Part shown: positions 1 to 8,831 of the stretch, piece by piece
Layout of the letters: every line of letters begins with the position of its first letter
Numbering within the stretch: the stretch's first letter is position 1
Source: Gammaproteobacteria bacterium
Lineage (GTDB): Bacteria; Pseudomonadota; Gammaproteobacteria; GCA-001735895
Assembly (NCBI GenBank): GCA_014382695.1
Contig: JACNJF010000084.1
Coordinates: forward strand, 1 to 64,000
Length of the DNA stretch: 64,000 nucleotides
Direction: 5' to 3'
Notes under the pieces: generated by a model
What the model was told of the DNA's origin: nothing
Databases searched by the model: none
Seen by the model: only the letters and a program-made list of their open reading frames with translations
Made by a program: the position numbers and the translations under genes

Positions 1-46
1 ATCTTAGTATTCATTCAGAACCTCCTAAATTACGACAATTATTTGA

Positions 47-126
47 GCCTAACGCGAGTGTAAGGGGCTGGCGGTTTTTGCCGGTCCCAGCGACCGAAGG
101 GAGCAACTTGACACCCTTGTTATGTG
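47..126 (-). other. integron attC recombination site (minus-strand orientation)
   Basis: On the minus strand: R'' CACATAAC ... R' GTTAGGC (consensus GTTRRRY), with internal imperfect arms GTGTCAAG / CTTACAC carrying one extra base in the 5' arm, as in attC sites; about 80 bp. Confidence 0.85.
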
Positions 127-157
127 TGTATTTATAGAAGGTACACATTGAAAGAAA

Positions 158-604
158 TTATATATACCATATTTTACTAATAATTTTACTTGCCATACGT
201 TCTGGGGAAACATATCCAAGCATCCCTAAACTAGCGTGGTATTTTTGGCATCTATATGGAAACAATCTAATACTCATGCAGCTATCTTTTGTCGATGATA
301 GAACCCTTGCTCTTTCTTCGTTGTGAAATACTCTAACACCAGTGTCATTACCAAATTTAAAAACTGCAAAAACTGTTGTTTTATACTCTCTATTAAAATC
401 ACCATCGTATACGTCAAGTAAGTCACTAGATACTTCTTGGTAACAAGATTTCTCATCTTCGCTTAGATTACGTAAAACCCCTTGAATATCTTCCTTTGCG
501 TCACCTTCAGTCAACTTAACGGGTTTTACAGTTAATACTCCGAACTTGAATAACAGATCGTTTTTAATTCGCCTGAATACATAAAACATATTGTAATCTA
601 CCAC
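158..604 (-). CDS. hypothetical protein, cassette ORF (GTG start overlapping the upstream stop; internal ATG also possible)
   Basis: 148 aa ORF overlapping the end of the 193 aa ORF; lies between two attC sites; no family recognised. Confidence 0.6.
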   Translation of the reverse strand: MVDYNMFYVFRRIKNDLLFKFGVLTVKPVKLTEGDAKEDIQGVLRNLSEDEKSCYQEVSSDLLDVYDGDFNREYKTTVFAVFKFGNDTGVRVFHNEERARVLSSTKDSCMSIRLFPYRCQKYHASLGMLGYVSPERMASKIISKIWYI

Positions 605-1179
605 AATTTCATAACAGGATAATCAGGAAGGTCTTTATCTGGTGTATAGGAAAAAAGGATATATGCTTCATTTATATTCAATGGAATTTCCCAATTGTGG
701 TTGTTGACAAATTGATTCACCCTCTTGAAGGGAAGCTTAGGCTCATCAGTGAATAAAAGTAAAAATACAGCAGAGTAAGCATCGCTATATACCGCTTCTA
801 GTGATTTTGATTTTTTATTGATAATGTTTTGAATTTCATCCAACGTGTTATCCTTATCCCAACTTACAACCTCAGAAAAATAACTCCTCTTTCCTTGAAT
901 TTGAGAATTTATTGCATCTTCATTTACAAGCTCAGTAAGCTCTAAAGCTATTTTCTCTCCTAAACTATTAAATGCCATAATATCAGGTGGATCATCTCCA
1001 TTTTTTATATTTCTAAACTTTCTACCTTCTAACGAACGTAAACCCTCAAAAAATCTAATAGCTATTGATAATTCTTTAGTTTTTTCATACTTTCTGGGAT
1101 AGTGAAAAAATGATGCATGCTTTCTTATTTGCTTTTTTACGTCCTCTATTAATTCAGTAAAAACTTTTTTCTGGCACAT
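598..1179 (-). CDS. hypothetical protein, possibly PD-(D/E)xK nuclease-like, cassette ORF
   Basis: 193 aa ORF; motif GDDPPDIMAFNSLGEKIALELTELV resembles a D-x(n)-E-x-T/K nuclease core by eye only. Confidence 0.65.
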   Translation of the reverse strand: MCQKKVFTELIEDVKKQIRKHASFFHYPRKYEKTKELSIAIRFFEGLRSLEGRKFRNIKNGDDPPDIMAFNSLGEKIALELTELVNEDAINSQIQGKRSYFSEVVSWDKDNTLDEIQNIINKKSKSLEAVYSDAYSAVFLLLFTDEPKLPFKRVNQFVNNHNWEIPLNINEAYILFSYTPDKDLPDYPVMKLW

Positions 1180-1183
1180 AATA

Positions 1184-1588
1184 TTAAGAAAAATATAAAA
1201 ACCCCGCTAACATAATAACAGCGGCGACAAAAGCTAATGTGATTCTCTCTTTCCGATCCTTCAATTTTTGAGCTGATGCTTCTTTCTGCGCATCCGAGGC
1301 ATGCTTCAAAATCCAGCTCCTTGCTTCTTCTAAAGTTAATTGGTCTTTTGATACATTAATATCGTTGTAAACGTTATTGAATGTGCCAACATCAAAACGA
1401 TTTTCAAGAACTTCACTTTTGGCGACGACCCAAAATCCTATTCTAAATGCATGAGGGCCTAACAGCTTATTTGATTCAGAATAACGCATAGAAGAATTTT
1501 TAGAGTAATAGTTGCTTTCAGGAAAAAGATCTTTCACTTCGTAAAAGAGTGATCTTATATTGTCTGATGTCACTATTTTAGATTCCAT
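1184..1588 (-). CDS. hypothetical protein with C-terminal membrane anchor, cassette ORF
   Basis: 134 aa ORF ending in ITLAFVAAVIMLAGFLYFS (single TM helix); stop lies 5 nt from the next start. Confidence 0.65.
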   Translation of the reverse strand: MESKIVTSDNIRSLFYEVKDLFPESNYYSKNSSMRYSESNKLLGPHAFRIGFWVVAKSEVLENRFDVGTFNNVYNDINVSKDQLTLEEARSWILKHASDAQKEASAQKLKDRKERITLAFVAAVIMLAGFLYFS

Positions 1589-1653
1589 ACCTTGTTTTGG
1601 ACTTAACTCGATTTTAAAAACGGACTTGTAGTCAATGATGTTAATTTTTACTG

Positions 1654-1743
1654 CACATAACGTCGCAAATCACTGGGAAATTTAGCCGTAGCGACGAAGG
1701 AGCGTAGGTTAAATTTTTCCATGTGAATTTGCCTTGTTATGTG
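1654..1743 (-). other. integron attC recombination site (minus-strand orientation)
   Basis: Perfect outer inverted repeat CACATAAC...GTTATGTG; inner arms GCAAATTCAC / GTGATTTGC with one extrahelical base in the minus-strand 5' arm; further pairing around TGGRAAA/TTTAACC. Confidence 0.9.
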
Positions 1744-1782
1744 TTTTTGAATTATGCATATGCTATTGATCTACCCAACAAT

Positions 1783-2661
1783 TCAAAGATTTCTATCATC
1801 TTCGAACGCCCGCAACCTAAAGGCATGTTGAGCATTAAAACCTTCAAAATTGAAACTGATAACATCATAAGGAATACCATTCTGAGAAGATTCATAAGAA
1901 TCTATATATCCAATACCCGTATATTCACCATTATTTATTTGAGAATCGCCACCATTTATGGCATCAGTAGGATCTATTGCCGAGCATGATGAAACCGTTA
2001 CGGTTGCTTTAATAATGCTATCTGTAATGTGCTCGTTAATAATTCCGTCAAACTGGCAACCATTTGTGTCATAGCCATTAAATGAATTAGTTATGAATGA
2101 TAAATTTATATCTTGTTTGTACCAACTAAGGTTTACTCTCTCGACACATCTTCCATTCACTATTAAACCGATGCAACTAACAGCAAAACCAAATTCCATA
2201 AAATAATTAGAAGGGGCGTTACTGAATTTGTATTTAAAATTTAGTGGTTGAGCGAAAGGGTTTAATATCTCACTTAAAGAAATCTGATTTTCGGGAAATT
2301 TTCGGAAGCTACCAAAATAAGGATTAGAGCCTCCCATATCATATGGAAACCCATACTCGTTATAAGTAACTTTAAAGTCATTACTGTCACTTTCATATGT
2401 ACCGCTTAGAGAATAATTTCTGCTTGACCCCAATAAATAAAAATCATTATTGTTATCAACAAATACTTTGCCACTTCTTAAGTTATCACTGCTGTTTTGA
2501 AAGCTAACATAGTAAATACCAGAAGTAGGTGGAATAGGAGTAGATGAAGGTATTGGACTGTTTTGATCTGCATTTGTATCAGAATCTCTCGCGCCACCAC
2601 ATGAAGTTAATGTAAATAAGGAGGTAGCAAAAAGTACATATATTGAAAATATCCTAATCAT
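1783..2661 (-). CDS. hypothetical lipoprotein, cassette ORF
   Basis: Start re-assigned to the ATG at 2661 (MIRIFSIYVLFATSLFTLTSCGG lipobox); starts right after the upstream ORF stop. Confidence 0.65.
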   Translation of the reverse strand: MIRIFSIYVLFATSLFTLTSCGGARDSDTNADQNSPIPSSTPIPPTSGIYYVSFQNSSDNLRSGKVFVDNNNDFYLLGSSRNYSLSGTYESDSNDFKVTYNEYGFPYDMGGSNPYFGSFRKFPENQISLSEILNPFAQPLNFKYKFSNAPSNYFMEFGFAVSCIGLIVNGRCVERVNLSWYKQDINLSFITNSFNGYDTNGCQFDGIINEHITDSIIKATVTVSSCSAIDPTDAINGGDSQINNGEYTGIGYIDSYESSQNGIPYDVISFNFEGFNAQHAFRLRAFEDDRNL

Positions 2662-2662
2662 G

Positions 2663-3367
2663 TTATTTATTCCTTGAATCATTATATTCTTTATAAGAGC
2701 AATTATCGTCCCATTCATGCTGAAGGTGATTTGGTAATAATACAACCAAGTTATTCTCACGTAGCTCGCTGAGCGAGCGACTTATTTGCATCATCTGGTA
2801 ACAGCTATGAAGCGCATTGTATGTGCTCATAAAAATCAAACTCTCATCCATATATTCTAGCAATTCATCGTATCGATTTTTATACTTTTCCTGGGAATGA
2901 AAATTGCCGGAATACAACAAAGTATCAATCAGATTTTTGTTAGTTTTAATGGGTCCGGGATAATCTTTACACATTAAAAGTGCGTCCCTATCCAATACTT
3001 CTTTCCAGTTATCTCTCATGTGTCGATTAAATTTTCTGACATGAATATTATTAACGTTCTCCTCCATATAACTACAAACGGAATATATGCTCATACATTC
3101 GCTTTTCATATAAAAAAGCCTTAGAGACCACACGAATGATGCAACATCAGAAATGGATATTGATTGACCCGCACACTCCCAGCGATTTCCGACAAGACGT
3201 CCACTAATATGAGAAAACATCTTTCCCTCTTTTAGAAGGCGATCTGCATGCCTGATAAATTCGCTTTTTACATACCAGAAACTTTCAGGCTTTCCATCTT
3301 CCGGACTTACCTTTGGAAATACAGTACCTGAAATGTCTATAGGTGTTTGTCCATAATTCAAACGCAT
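2663..3367 (-). CDS. hypothetical protein, cassette ORF
   Basis: 234 aa ORF starting 26 nt after a GTTATGTG cassette boundary on the minus strand; no family recognised. Confidence 0.6.
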   Translation of the reverse strand: MRLNYGQTPIDISGTVFPKVSPEDGKPESFWYVKSEFIRHADRLLKEGKMFSHISGRLVGNRWECAGQSISISDVASFVWSLRLFYMKSECMSIYSVCSYMEENVNNIHVRKFNRHMRDNWKEVLDRDALLMCKDYPGPIKTNKNLIDTLLYSGNFHSQEKYKNRYDELLEYMDESLIFMSTYNALHSCYQMMQISRSLSELRENNLVVLLPNHLQHEWDDNCSYKEYNDSRNK

Positions 3368-3392
3368 AACTAGAATATTTCACCTTTATTTA

Positions 3393-3400
3393 CACATAAC
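3393..3400 (-). other. 5' boundary of the first visible integron cassette (G^TTATGTG)
   Basis: GTTATGTG on the minus strand is the exact complement of R'' (CACATAAC) of the attC that closes this cassette at 1736-1743. Confidence 0.6.
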
Positions 3401-3426
3401 AGCGAATTCTACAGTTTCTCTGTTCA

Positions 3427-3459
3427 CCGGGTTTTACGGAAACTGTAAAACCCGGTTTT
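3427..3459 (+). terminator. terminator-like hairpin
   Basis: CCGGGTTTTAC-N7-GTAAAACCCGG followed by TTTT. Confidence 0.4.
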
Positions 3460-3870
3460 GGATTGTTTAAAACTGATCCATATTGAACGGGCAATCAAGG
3501 CCAGCAATCGAATAGAGCGGATAGTTTGACGGTGGTAATAACCCGGAATCTGTTTCATTTTGTCCGGGCTTAATAATTGTTTTTCCATGTGTTTTTAGTA
3601 TCCCTGTGGAAAGGTAGTTAATTTTTATAATTTCCATCAGATTACCGCTTTATATATGAGCAGGTCAATGGGGTATTGTTATCTGATCCTTATGGGCTGA
3701 TGAACCGCATTGCAAAATGCGGAATTGATTGCCCATCTGCTTATCTGTCATGGTCAGTTCTGGAGAGCTAAAACGGGTGTTAATCCTGTTTGCCTTGCTC
3801 CCCGCTGCAGCGACTGGCGTACCTGAAATCAGGTACACTGACCTTTCTTTCACAAAAAGGGGGAGTTCGG

Positions 3871-4224
3871 ATGTCTTATATCGATGGTTATGTGGTTGCA
3901 GTGCCTACCCGGAATAAACAGAACTATATCAAGATTGCCACGGAGGCCGCGCAGGTATTCAAGGATCATGGCGCGCTGCGCGTGATGGAAAGCTGGGCGG
4001 ATGATGTGCCTGACGGGAAGCTAACTTCGTTTCCGCTGGCGGTGCAGTGTAAGCCCGATGAGAGCGTGGTGTTTTGCTGGATCGAATGGCCGGATCGTGC
4101 AACTCGCGATCAGGGGATGAAACAGGCGATGGCAGATGCGCGGATGCAGCATGATCCGGCTAAAATGCCGTTCGATGGGCAGCGTATGATTTTCGGTGGA
4201 TTTGACAGCATCGTTGACTGCTAA
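3871..4224 (+). CDS. DUF1428 family protein
   Basis: MSYIDGYVVAVPTRNKQNYIKIA...MPFDGQRMIFGGFDSIVD pattern; start moved to the ATG at 3871 after GGGGGAG. Confidence 0.85.
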   Translation: MSYIDGYVVAVPTRNKQNYIKIATEAAQVFKDHGALRVMESWADDVPDGKLTSFPLAVQCKPDESVVFCWIEWPDRATRDQGMKQAMADARMQHDPAKMPFDGQRMIFGGFDSIVDC

Positions 4225-4253
4225 TGCGAGTGCTATCGTCGGCCTCAATTTGA

Positions 4254-4286
4254 GAGCGGGGATATGGCTGTGCCAGAGCCCCGCTC
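4254..4286. terminator. bidirectional terminator-like hairpin between convergent genes
   Basis: GAGCGGGG ... CCCCGCTC inverted repeat. Confidence 0.5.
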
Positions 4287-4295
4287 AGAAGTTTA

Positions 4296-7200
4296 TCAGC
4301 GCATCTCTTTCAGTCTGGCGTTGGAAAACCACGCGTACAACACCGGTAACACGAACAGGGTCAGAAAGGTGGCCGTGACCAGACCGCCGACGATCACCGT
4401 GGCCAGCGGGCGCTGAATCTCTGAACCGACACCGTTTGAGAGGATCATCGGAATCAGTCCGAGTGCGGCGACGATGGCGGTCATTAGTACCGGGCGCAGA
4501 CGTGATACCGCACCTTCAAATACGGCTTTGGCGATGTCTTCATTGCCGTACTCGATACGCAGATTAATCGCTTCCACCATCACCACGCCATTCAACACCG
4601 CGACCCCGAACAGAGTGATAAAGCCGATTGAGCTTGGTACCGACAGATACTGTCCAGTCAGGTACAGTGCAAAGATGCCGCCGATCATCGCCAGCGGCAG
4701 GTTAACCAGAATCAGCAATGCCTGTCCTACCGAATGGGTGGCAAAATAAAGTAGCAGAGCAATCAGACCGATCGACAGCGGTACCACGATCATCAGGCGT
4801 TGTTGTGCGCGCTGCTGATTTTCATACTGCCCGCCGATATCGACCGAATAGCCGGGTGGCAGGTCGACCTGTTCGCGCATGGCCTGACGGATGTCCGCCA
4901 CCACGCTGCCCATATCGCGGCCCTGTACATTGGCCTGAATCACCACGCGGCGTTGTACGTCATCGCGCCGCACCTGTGGCGGCCCGGATTCGATGCTGAT
5001 GGCGGCCACATCTCCGAGGCGCACCCAGGCGCCGGTCGGTGACTGCAGACGCAGATCGGCAATCGCCTGCTGGTCTTTACGAAACTCACTGTCGAGGCGC
5101 ACGTAGATATCGTAGCGTTCGTTGCCGTTGATGATCTGACCGGCTTCCACCCCGCCAAGTCCATCGCGAACCAGATCCATCACGTCGCCCACGGCGAGTC
5201 CGTAGCGTGACAGCTGACGCCGGTCCGGTCTGACCACCAGTTGTGCCTCGCCGGCGATCTGTTCCATCGCCACATCGCGCGCACCGGGGATTGCCTGCAC
5301 CACTTTTTCGATGGCCTGGCCCTGTTCGGCGAGTACCTTCAGATCCGGCCCGAACAGCTTGATCGCCAGTTGTGCCTTGACCCCGGACAGCAGTTCATCC
5401 ACACGCGTCGCGATCGGCTGGGAAAAGTTCAGCAACAGGCCGGGAAACTGTTCCAGCCTGTGCTCCATCAGTTCCTGTAGCGCGAGTCGATTACTCGCGC
5501 TGGTCCACTCGGCAGTGGGCCTGAGGCCGATATAGATTTCGATATTATTCACCGGCTCCGGATCGCCGCCGATTTCTGCCCGGCCGATACGACTGGAGGC
5601 ATAGGTGACTTCGGGGAATTCGAGCAGCATGGCTTCCAGTACTGGTGCGACACTGAGTGCGGTATCCAGGCTGGAGGAAGGGGCCAGAGTAGCGCGCAGG
5701 TTGAGGGTGCCTTCTTCCAGTTCGGGCACAAACTCGGTGCCCAGTCTGGGCAGTAATAGCAGCGCCGACAGCAGCAGCCCGAAAGCGCCGATCAGGACCA
5801 GGACTTTAAACCGCATCGCGAAACTCAGCAGCCAGCGATACAGCGTTTCCAGCACCGAGACTAGCGGGCTGGTGCGCGCGCTCAGGCCGCGCTGGAACAG
5901 GTAGCTGGCCAGCGCCGGTACCACGATCAGAGAGACCGCCAGCGAGGCGGCCATTGCGATCATGATACTCACCGCCATCGGTTGAAACATCTTGCCTTCC
6001 ACCCCTTCCAGGCTGAATAGCGGGGCGAACACCACCATGATAATGGTAACGGCGAAGAACACCGGTTTGGCAACTTCGCGTGCTGCCTCCTGAATGCGCA
6101 GCGCGACCGGCCTATCCTGCTCGACGTCGTAGGGATCGGTATCATTCAGTGCAAGGTTTTGTGCATGCTGCTGATCGTGCTGGCGATCCGGGTGGCTCAG
6201 GTGTTTGAAGATATTTTCCATCATCACCACCGCGCCATCGACCATCATACCGATCGCAACCGCCAGTCCACCGAGCGACATCAGATTGGCCGACAGACCG
6301 TAATAAGCCATTACGGTCAGCGCCATGCCGATCGATAGCGGAATCGAAATCAACACCAGTAATACGGCGCGCAGATTGAGCAGGAATAACACCAGCACGA
6401 TCACGATAAACACGAAGGCTTCGACCAGAGCGGTTACTACCGTGCTCACCGCCTTGCTGATTAAATCCGACTGATCGTAAATCGGTTCAAAGCTGACGCC
6501 GGGCGGCAACGCCTGCTGGATCAGGTTGACGCGTTCAAGGATACCGTCGATGGTAGCCTTGGTATTCGCGCCCATGCGTTTCAGTACGATGCCGGAAACC
6601 ACTTCGCCCAGTTGTTCCAGTTCGCCACTGGCGTTACGCCGCGACAGGGTAACGGCACCCTGTCGGATTTCACTGCCGAGTTCAACGGTGGCAACATCGG
6701 CTACCGTAACCACCGCGCTGGCGGATGTTTTGAGCGGAATCTGGCGTAACTCGTCCAGCCCCTGCTGGTCATGGCCGAGCCAGCCTACCGCGCGAATCAC
6801 CAGCTGTTCCTGCCCGCGATCCATATACCAGCCGCCGGCGTTTTCGTTATTTCGCTCAAGCGCTGCGACCACATCACTCTGGCTCAATTCATAGGCGAGC
6901 AGGCGGGCCGGATTGATATTCACCTGATACTGGCGCACATCACCGCCAAACGACAACACATCGGTAACCCCGTCCACCGGCATCAGCAGCAACTTGACCA
7001 CCCAGTCGTTGAGGCTGCGTAAGGCCATCACGTCATAGCCGGAACTGGCTTCGGCCAGCAGCAGGTACTGATAAACCTGACCCAGCCCCGAGGTATTGGG
7101 GCCGATTTCCGGCGTGCCGACGCCAGCCGGAATCAACTCTCTGGCCGATTGCAGGCGCTCGAACACCAGCTGGCGCGCAAAATAGATATCGGTGCCTTCA

Positions 7201-7493
7201 CGGAACACCACGGTAATTCCAGACAGTCCGGTCTTGGAAATAGAGCGTACCTCTTCCACATCGGGCAGCGCGTACATCACCGCTTCGATCGGAAAGGTGA
7301 TTAGCTGCTCGACTTCTTCCGCCGCCAGTCCGGGGGCTTCGGTATTGATCGAAACCTGTACATTGGTGACATCCGGAAACGCATCCAGATTGAGCCGGGG
7401 AATGATGAAGAAAGCCGCGACACTGAATGTCAGTAGTGCAATCACCACCATCAGACGGTTGCTGACCGCCCAGTCGATAACTCGATTTAACAT
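4296..7493 (-). CDS. heavy-metal efflux RND transporter permease (CzcA/CusA family)
   Basis: 1065 aa; RND architecture, LAVAIGMMVDGAVVMMEN in TM4, repeated domains. Confidence 0.93.
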   Translation of the reverse strand: MLNRVIDWAVSNRLMVVIALLTFSVAAFFIIPRLNLDAFPDVTNVQVSINTEAPGLAAEEVEQLITFPIEAVMYALPDVEEVRSISKTGLSGITVVFREGTDIYFARQLVFERLQSARELIPAGVGTPEIGPNTSGLGQVYQYLLLAEASSGYDVMALRSLNDWVVKLLLMPVDGVTDVLSFGGDVRQYQVNINPARLLAYELSQSDVVAALERNNENAGGWYMDRGQEQLVIRAVGWLGHDQQGLDELRQIPLKTSASAVVTVADVATVELGSEIRQGAVTLSRRNASGELEQLGEVVSGIVLKRMGANTKATIDGILERVNLIQQALPPGVSFEPIYDQSDLISKAVSTVVTALVEAFVFIVIVLVLFLLNLRAVLLVLISIPLSIGMALTVMAYYGLSANLMSLGGLAVAIGMMVDGAVVMMENIFKHLSHPDRQHDQQHAQNLALNDTDPYDVEQDRPVALRIQEAAREVAKPVFFAVTIIMVVFAPLFSLEGVEGKMFQPMAVSIMIAMAASLAVSLIVVPALASYLFQRGLSARTSPLVSVLETLYRWLLSFAMRFKVLVLIGAFGLLLSALLLLPRLGTEFVPELEEGTLNLRATLAPSSSLDTALSVAPVLEAMLLEFPEVTYASSRIGRAEIGGDPEPVNNIEIYIGLRPTAEWTSASNRLALQELMEHRLEQFPGLLLNFSQPIATRVDELLSGVKAQLAIKLFGPDLKVLAEQGQAIEKVVQAIPGARDVAMEQIAGEAQLVVRPDRRQLSRYGLAVGDVMDLVRDGLGGVEAGQIINGNERYDIYVRLDSEFRKDQQAIADLRLQSPTGAWVRLGDVAAISIESGPPQVRRDDVQRRVVIQANVQGRDMGSVVADIRQAMREQVDLPPGYSVDIGGQYENQQRAQQRLMIVVPLSIGLIALLLYFATHSVGQALLILVNLPLAMIGGIFALYLTGQYLSVPSSIGFITLFGVAVLNGVVMVEAINLRIEYGNEDIAKAVFEGAVSRLRPVLMTAIVAALGLIPMILSNGVGSEIQRPLATVIVGGLVTATFLTLFVLPVLYAWFSNARLKEMR

Positions 7494-7508
7494 GGCATTA
7501 TCTCCGCA

Positions 7509-8831
7509 TCAATGATTGTGCGGATCAAAACCGCCCTTGGCGATCTGAGAAGCGACAAAGAAAGCGCCTTCGATCACCACCCTGGTGCCTGCCGCTACGC
7601 CGTTGATTTCTCGCCATTGGCCGAGCGAACGTCCGAGGACCACTTCCTGAGCTTTAAACTGACCCGCTTCGGTTTCCACAAAAACCGTCCAGTCGCCATC
7701 GGCACTGCGCATCAGGGCGGCTTCCGGAACCGCCAGTACCGCATGTTCGGTGGTGAACACAAAGTAAACGTCGGCGAACAGGCCCGGATGCAGTCGATGG
7801 GCATCGTTGTTAACCAGCAGACGGACGACGCGGGTGCGGGTCTGCGGATCAATGGTGTGAGCCTCCTGCGCGACCCGCGCTGCAAACCATTCATTACCGA
7901 CCCTGACCTGAGCCAGGGTGCCGGTCGGCAGCTCCAGGTTGGCGGTGGGTGCCAGACGTGCTTCCACCCAGAGTTCATGCTCATCGGCCAGTTCCATCAG
8001 TGCCTGGCCGGCTTCTACGCGCTGGCCCTGATGAAAATCATCCGACAGTACCGCCCCGGAAATCGCGGCATACAGGGTGTATTCACCGAGATTCTGATTC
8101 TTTCGGGTGAGTGACTGAATCGCGTCCTGCGACAGACCATAAGCGATCAGTCTGCCATACGCGGCTTCGTAATCGGTCTGGGCGGCGATAAAACGCCGGT
8201 CACCGATGGCTTTTTTCCCCAGTTTTTCCACCCGTTGCCATTCTGCATTGGCAACCCGGAACGCGGCCTGAGATTCGGCGACGGTTTCGCTGAACAGGGT
8301 GACCAGCGGCTTGCCCTTTTCGACATGATCGCCGAGTGCGACCGAGCGTCGTAGTACCACCGAGTCGACGCGTGGTGACACCAGATAACTGGTATAACCA
8401 TTGGCCTTGATTTCACCCGGCGCATACACCTGAAAGTCCATCTGTTGCGCGCTCAGGCTTGCGACCCTGATTTTGGCCAGCGACAGTTGCTGGCGGGATA
8501 ATGCGACACCTTCTTCATGATCATCATGGCCCGCATGGCCGTGTCCATCATCGGGTTTGCCTCCAGCGATGTCATCGTGTGCGTGACGGTCGCCATTCTG
8601 ATGCGTGTCTTGCTTCGCGTCACCCATATCAAGGGTGAGTCCTCCATGTCCGGCGTGATCATGGTCAGCATGCTGATCGAGTTCCAGAGCGGGTGCCTGC
8701 CGGCTGATTAGCGTATCTTTGTGACTAGTTTCGTCATGCGCGTGATTGTGTTCCTGCTGAGCGTATAAGCTGCTGCCCAGTGGCAGCAGCAGGCTGCTGA
8801 ACAGAATTAAAGTAAGAGTATTGTTTTTCAT
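7509..8831 (-). CDS. RND periplasmic adaptor subunit (CzcB/CusB-like) with His-rich N-terminus
   Basis: 440 aa; signal peptide, His/Asp-rich stretch, then biotinyl-lipoyl/HlyD-like domain. Confidence 0.9.
   Translation of the reverse strand: MKNNTLTLILFSSLLLPLGSSLYAQQEHNHAHDETSHKDTLISRQAPALELDQHADHDHAGHGGLTLDMGDAKQDTHQNGDRHAHDDIAGGKPDDGHGHAGHDDHEEGVALSRQQLSLAKIRVASLSAQQMDFQVYAPGEIKANGYTSYLVSPRVDSVVLRRSVALGDHVEKGKPLVTLFSETVAESQAAFRVANAEWQRVEKLGKKAIGDRRFIAAQTDYEAAYGRLIAYGLSQDAIQSLTRKNQNLGEYTLYAAISGAVLSDDFHQGQRVEAGQALMELADEHELWVEARLAPTANLELPTGTLAQVRVGNEWFAARVAQEAHTIDPQTRTRVVRLLVNNDAHRLHPGLFADVYFVFTTEHAVLAVPEAALMRSADGDWTVFVETEAGQFKAQEVVLGRSLGQWREINGVAAGTRVVIEGAFFVASQIAKGGFDPHNH

Follow-up and report, generated by a model that had tools for sequence, protein, structure and literature searches.

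An integron cassette array without an adjacent integrase gene, headed by an attI of the long-integrase class, in a gammaproteobacterial draft genome

Two integron gene cassettes and the start of a third lie at the end of a contig with no integrase gene beside them, and they raise the question of how cassettes came to be collected there. In the IntegronFinder 2.0 survey such attC clusters, the CALINs, roughly equal complete integrons in number; their definition there ignores attI, and they are viewed as probable degraded integrons (PMC9024848). CALINs may be degraded integrons or cassettes that landed elsewhere, and a profile of the attI sites of long integrases makes the question testable from sequence. 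The window analysed here, a stretch of 64,000 nucleotides, corresponds to bases 1-64000 of C130, a contig of 67,983 bp in a draft MAG that has 238 contigs. The host family is sparsely sequenced, and its named relatives are uncultured Gammaproteobacteria MAGs. The array itself is composed as follows.

1661..3399, minus strand: cassette 1, which begins TTATGTG and holds two overlapping ORFs (2663-3367 and 1783-2661), function unassigned
1654..1743, minus strand: attC of cassette 1, with R'' and R' boxes and a fold z of -4.5
53..1660, minus strand: cassette 2, which begins TTATGTG, has an exact attC R'' and holds three ORFs (1184-1588, 598-1179 and 158-604), function unassigned
47..126, minus strand: attC of cassette 2, with R'' CACATAAC, R' GTTAGGC and L boxes with one extrahelical base
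1..52, minus strand: start only of cassette 3, with a TTAGGC start at 52, AGGAGG at 21-26 and an ATG at 14, cut by the contig end

Read on the minus strand, cassette 1 begins GTTATGTG at 3400, and its attC (1743-1654) carries the R'' CACATAAC, an exact match (ACATAAC) located 1658 nt downstream of the crossover; cassette 2 begins with the same GTTATGTG at 1661. This string occurs eight times in the window against 1.6 expected, a count that none of 100 shuffles reached, and four of the eight occurrences are these cassette borders. The attC at 1654-1743 folds better than its shuffles on either strand (z about -4.5). The one at 47-126 shows no such advantage (z -0.1 to -0.5), which leaves its boxes and the exact match of its R'' as the basis of its identity. 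A home-made attC finder, for which chance gives 0.06 hits per kb per strand, also detected only 1654-1743; the extrahelical base and a branched loop are probably responsible for the miss of 47-126. A CALIN comprises at least two attC sites, and two are present here. Because base 1 of the window is the contig end, the lack of further cassettes at the left reflects a limit of the assembly. With the polarity of the array, an integrase gene would be expected at the right, where the contig continues for 64 kb, and contig C130 has no match to TIGR02249 or PF00589: no integrase is found nearby, as in a CALIN, nor beside attI, as it would be in a complete integron. Much of this had been described in an earlier, sequence-only reading. 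The two attC sites, the cassette borders and their common minus polarity are borne out by the boxes, the exact R'' matches and the fold of 1654-1743; the exact complementarity of each cassette start to the R'' of its own attC was found again for cassettes 1 and 2; the third cassette, leaving the left edge from position 52 with its AGGAGG and ATG, agrees with the sequence, that edge being the contig end; and the absence of an integrase from the window extends to the whole contig.

The same reading held that no attI precedes the array and that the sequence runs straight into a DUF1428 gene. This part has to be corrected, since an attI and a platform unit of about 340 bp (approximately 3397-3756) had been overlooked. 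The 60 bp ahead of cassette 1 have further copies in the host genome, on contigs C238 and C156, and in relatives, as found by a DNA search with the right flank. A model built of seven copies (R1) returned 19 copies of a site of about 60-100 bp in 9 of the 41 host-family genomes, the window copy included, and a pattern scan added one further copy, heading cassettes, in a Nitrosomonas MAG in which no integron integrase scored over the cut-off. Other matches of that scan outside the host family, in the genome collection, are mostly due to chance; the Nitrosomonas one is real. Unambiguous cassettes follow the window, C238, G001 and Nitrosomonas copies. Those at C238 and G001 are other cassettes, placed directly after the site, with a junction that matches their attC R'' exactly. 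The features upstream of the cassettes in the window are these.

3397..3456, minus strand: orphan attI of the long-integrase class, matched by models R1 and R2 and the top R3 match of window positions 1-8000
3397..3756, minus strand: platform unit, common to the C238 and C156 loci of the host genome
3424..3588, minus strand: leader ORF of 54 codons, extending into attI
3639..3668, minus strand: promoter-like box TTGACC-N18-TAATCT, 268 nt before the crossover, a putative cassette promoter

The assignment to a class of attI comes from models R2 and R3. Model R2 scores 13.8 and 21.2 bits at the attI sites adjacent to two long integrases, both matches ending exactly at the crossover. R3 is an alignment of 14 attI sites taken solely from beside long intI genes of Gammaproteobacteria, whose reading frames of 458-519 aa (any untranslated 5' part included) place about 150 residues ahead of the canonical integrase domain; it contains no host-family copy of the motif except one intI-adjacent site of genome G014. 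These 14 sites show two direct repeats of GANTCTGTCTAAT and a terminal ACTG^TTR. Applied to 223 kb, R3 recovered 12 loci among the host-family and Nitrosomonas copies, and it had no match at short-integrase attI controls. In window positions 1-8000 its top match is 3397-3454 on the minus strand (9.8 bits, E 0.009; runner-up 2.5 bits), and the alignment reaches the last model position, the crossover G^TT. The crossover falls between G3400 and T3399, with direct repeats at about 3443-3423 and 3420-3397. As in a complete integron, an attI heads the array, the window copy itself scoring low with R3. With default filters R3 found no match in the window, and a whole-genome search returned none of the three own-genome copies (C130, C238 and C156); the window copy is therefore read as a diverged attI that leans on better preserved relatives. 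Short integrases of the host family have an attI different from the motif, and the motif was accordingly rejected as their site. Their own attI (L158-L169) is common to them and conserved, with a palindrome AAAGGTCGAAGACCTTT and the ending GGCTG^TTA.

The similarity among the loci of the host genome extends well beyond attI. The window, C238 and C156 copies can be aligned for about 340 bp, as far as attI, beyond which the similarity ends. Identity between the window and C238 is 71% across 360 bp, and C156 is mostly collinear with the window unit at a weaker level, clear likeness being confined to the last 67 bp and to patches. The promoter-like box lies 267-268 nt before the crossover at all three loci and at 267-272 nt in five copies from three species, the copies of two relatives having 270 and 272 nt; it is below the threshold of a generic sigma-70 scan. 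The leader ORFs at the three loci have 54-59 codons, and in each the ATG lies 45 codons ahead of the attI-encoded FYSF. In another genome (L141 from 232, G023:C573), the frame through the attI leader continues into the ORF of the downstream gene in a fusion-like manner. No trace of intI was found in the unit at any of the three host-genome loci. On C156 the motif lies downstream of recD; it was not found downstream of recD in six relatives that have this gene, which suggests a gain on C156, the gene order around recD not being conserved among relatives.

In the sequence an attI is present, the cassettes begin exactly at its crossover and no local intI exists; several such platforms occupy unrelated loci of the host genome, and a fragment of intI lies elsewhere. 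On these grounds the array is very probably an integron without an integrase gene, its cassettes correctly oriented at an attI of the long-integrase class and preceded by a leader ORF and a promoter-like box. The cassettes would have been inserted by IntI-mediated recombination of attC with the attI of the window, and they may be transcribed from the promoter-like box of the platform.

Which integrase made the insertions is a separate matter. A search of the whole host genome for intI returned a single fragment, covering profile residues 200-315, which stands right at the beginning of contig C134, truncated by the contig edge, and does not adjoin the array. In a tree it is placed outside the clade of host-family short integrases and next to the long ones, filling only 36% of the columns; as only this fragment is present, the length class of the host integrase leans on the tree. 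In another genome (L068:1501-2600, G007:C14), an insert of about 140 bp interrupts a short-type intI, with profile residues 1-277 before the break and 283-315 after it.

Orphan sites are not peculiar to the host family. A search of 369 gammaproteobacterial genomes with R3 gave a match at E <=0.01 in 58 genomes. Of 72 matches tallied (E up to about 3e-4), 16 are located 72-181 bp from an integrase. For the other 56, no listed integrase occurs within 2 kb, although an integrase outside the list may accompany some of these and a few have a contig end shortly upstream. An orphan attI occurs together with an integrase elsewhere, again among the integrases listed, in 17 genomes. These sites bear on the strongest alternative, a version of the reading above according to which every platform once had its own intI that was deleted, leaving attI and cassettes, and nothing acted in trans. 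About 10 of the 40 orphans that we checked directly retain upstream fragments of intI in the right place and orientation, the others being without them; such intermediate relics favour loss as one route, and CALINs have been proposed to be degraded integrons (PMC9024848). On the other hand, no host-family copy has any trace of intI, and one intI-free unit with fixed spacing at three loci of the host genome would demand three identical losses, or else a single loss followed by duplication. We give this alternative slightly less than an even chance, and judge in the same way its narrower form, in which a local intI, lost afterwards, made the window insertions.

The insertions could also have been made in trans by the integrase on C134, to which we give somewhat less than an even chance. 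Contigs end within a few bases of the crossover at L066:1562 (G000:C156), L245:2368 (G378:C53) and L254:2605 (G258:C3), as if the first cassette varied in the sampled population. Together with the common intI-free unit, these contig ends favour use in trans in the host genome. A still broader proposal, which is tentative and which we consider rather doubtful, is that long-integrase integrons are multi-platform systems, in which one integrase acting in trans would serve dispersed, intI-free and self-spreading attI-promoter platforms, many CALINs then being live satellite integrons and not relics. If platforms are served in trans, a genome would have several cassette expression sites and not one.

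Insertion of cassettes into secondary genomic sites (attG) is known, and the contig without intI would agree with it; as in such insertions, the cassettes lie away from an integrase. Yet the target in the window resembles attI and is not a divergent genomic sequence: the flank has the direct repeats and the terminus seen in attI sites next to intI, and it is found again ahead of other arrays, whereas attG targets have been described as diverging from att sites (PMC12901181). Cassettes follow many of the orphan sites: at 24 of the 35 testable ones (those with GTT at the crossover, host-family copies included) a downstream attC R'' is exactly complementary to the junction, compared with 2.4 on average and at most 7 in 200 control trials. 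From the recurrence of intI-free attI sites before arrays and from these 24 sites, we infer that the array is an attI-headed CALIN and not an attG insertion, which we hold to be very unlikely. The sequence-only reading had offered a CALIN or a secondary site; the first stands as an operational label, for an attC cluster with no integrase on the contig, and the second falls with an attI directly before cassette 1 that recurs at the starts of other arrays. More generally, the long-integrase attI profile separates attI-headed arrays, with or without remnants of intI, from attG insertions.

An attC-like nature of the motif, or an unrelated dispersed repeat that IntI uses fortuitously, is highly improbable. 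The copies of the motif are dispersed and an inverted repeat was predicted on seven of them, but no consensus pairing is seen on 17 copies, and the motif was checked to be present at intI-adjacent attI sites. An attC-like hairpin or VCR-type repeat, suggested by the same prediction, was rejected, RNAalifold giving no pair on the 17 copies and the intI-adjacent attI sites having direct repeats. A transposon end or phage site was likewise rejected, with no plasmid or phage match and three coincidental viral pattern matches. Least likely of all is an assembly artefact in which a truly adjacent intI was lost or misjoined: the MAG is a draft, its intI fragment lies at a contig edge and draft genomes raise CALIN counts (PMC9024848), but the contig continues 64 kb beyond attI on the intI side, the intI-free unit is also found on C238 and C156, and in other genomes orphans are found far from the ends of long contigs (G278:C24, 183 kb).

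Compared with known systems, the array shares with the CALINs of IntegronFinder (PMC9024848) an attC array without an integrase nearby, and differs in having its own attI and promoter-like box and in the presence of several such platforms per genome. Complete chromosomal integrons with a long IntI (TIGR02249, with an N-terminal extension of about 150 aa) are alike in attI class, crossover and cassette orientation, but have the intI beside attI that is missing here. Xanthomonas CALINs occupy conserved loci, unlike attG insertions, and some lie away from ilvD, for example near secF and recD, giving integrase-less arrays at several loci per genome as in the host; one kind lies near recD, like the C156 platform (PMC12444791). 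In mobile integrons, attI pieces serve as cassette-end sites in Delta-attI-type cassettes (PMC12901181); there too attI sequence lies away from intI, but the pieces replace attC at cassette ends, while the window array is headed by a whole attI. Our literature search, which covered subscription journals little, revealed no earlier description of arrays headed by dispersed attI sites that lack intI.

As to their content, both complete cassettes of the window (53-3399) are long, 1.6-1.7 kb, with two and three tightly packed ORFs. These ORFs have no significant match in Pfam, NCBIfam or PADLOC, and possibly represent multi-gene systems of a new kind. In the Nitrosomonas array headed by an orphan attI (L123:2126-4309), the first two cassettes carry a gene for an AAA ATPase and one for a predicted pPIWI-associating nuclease.
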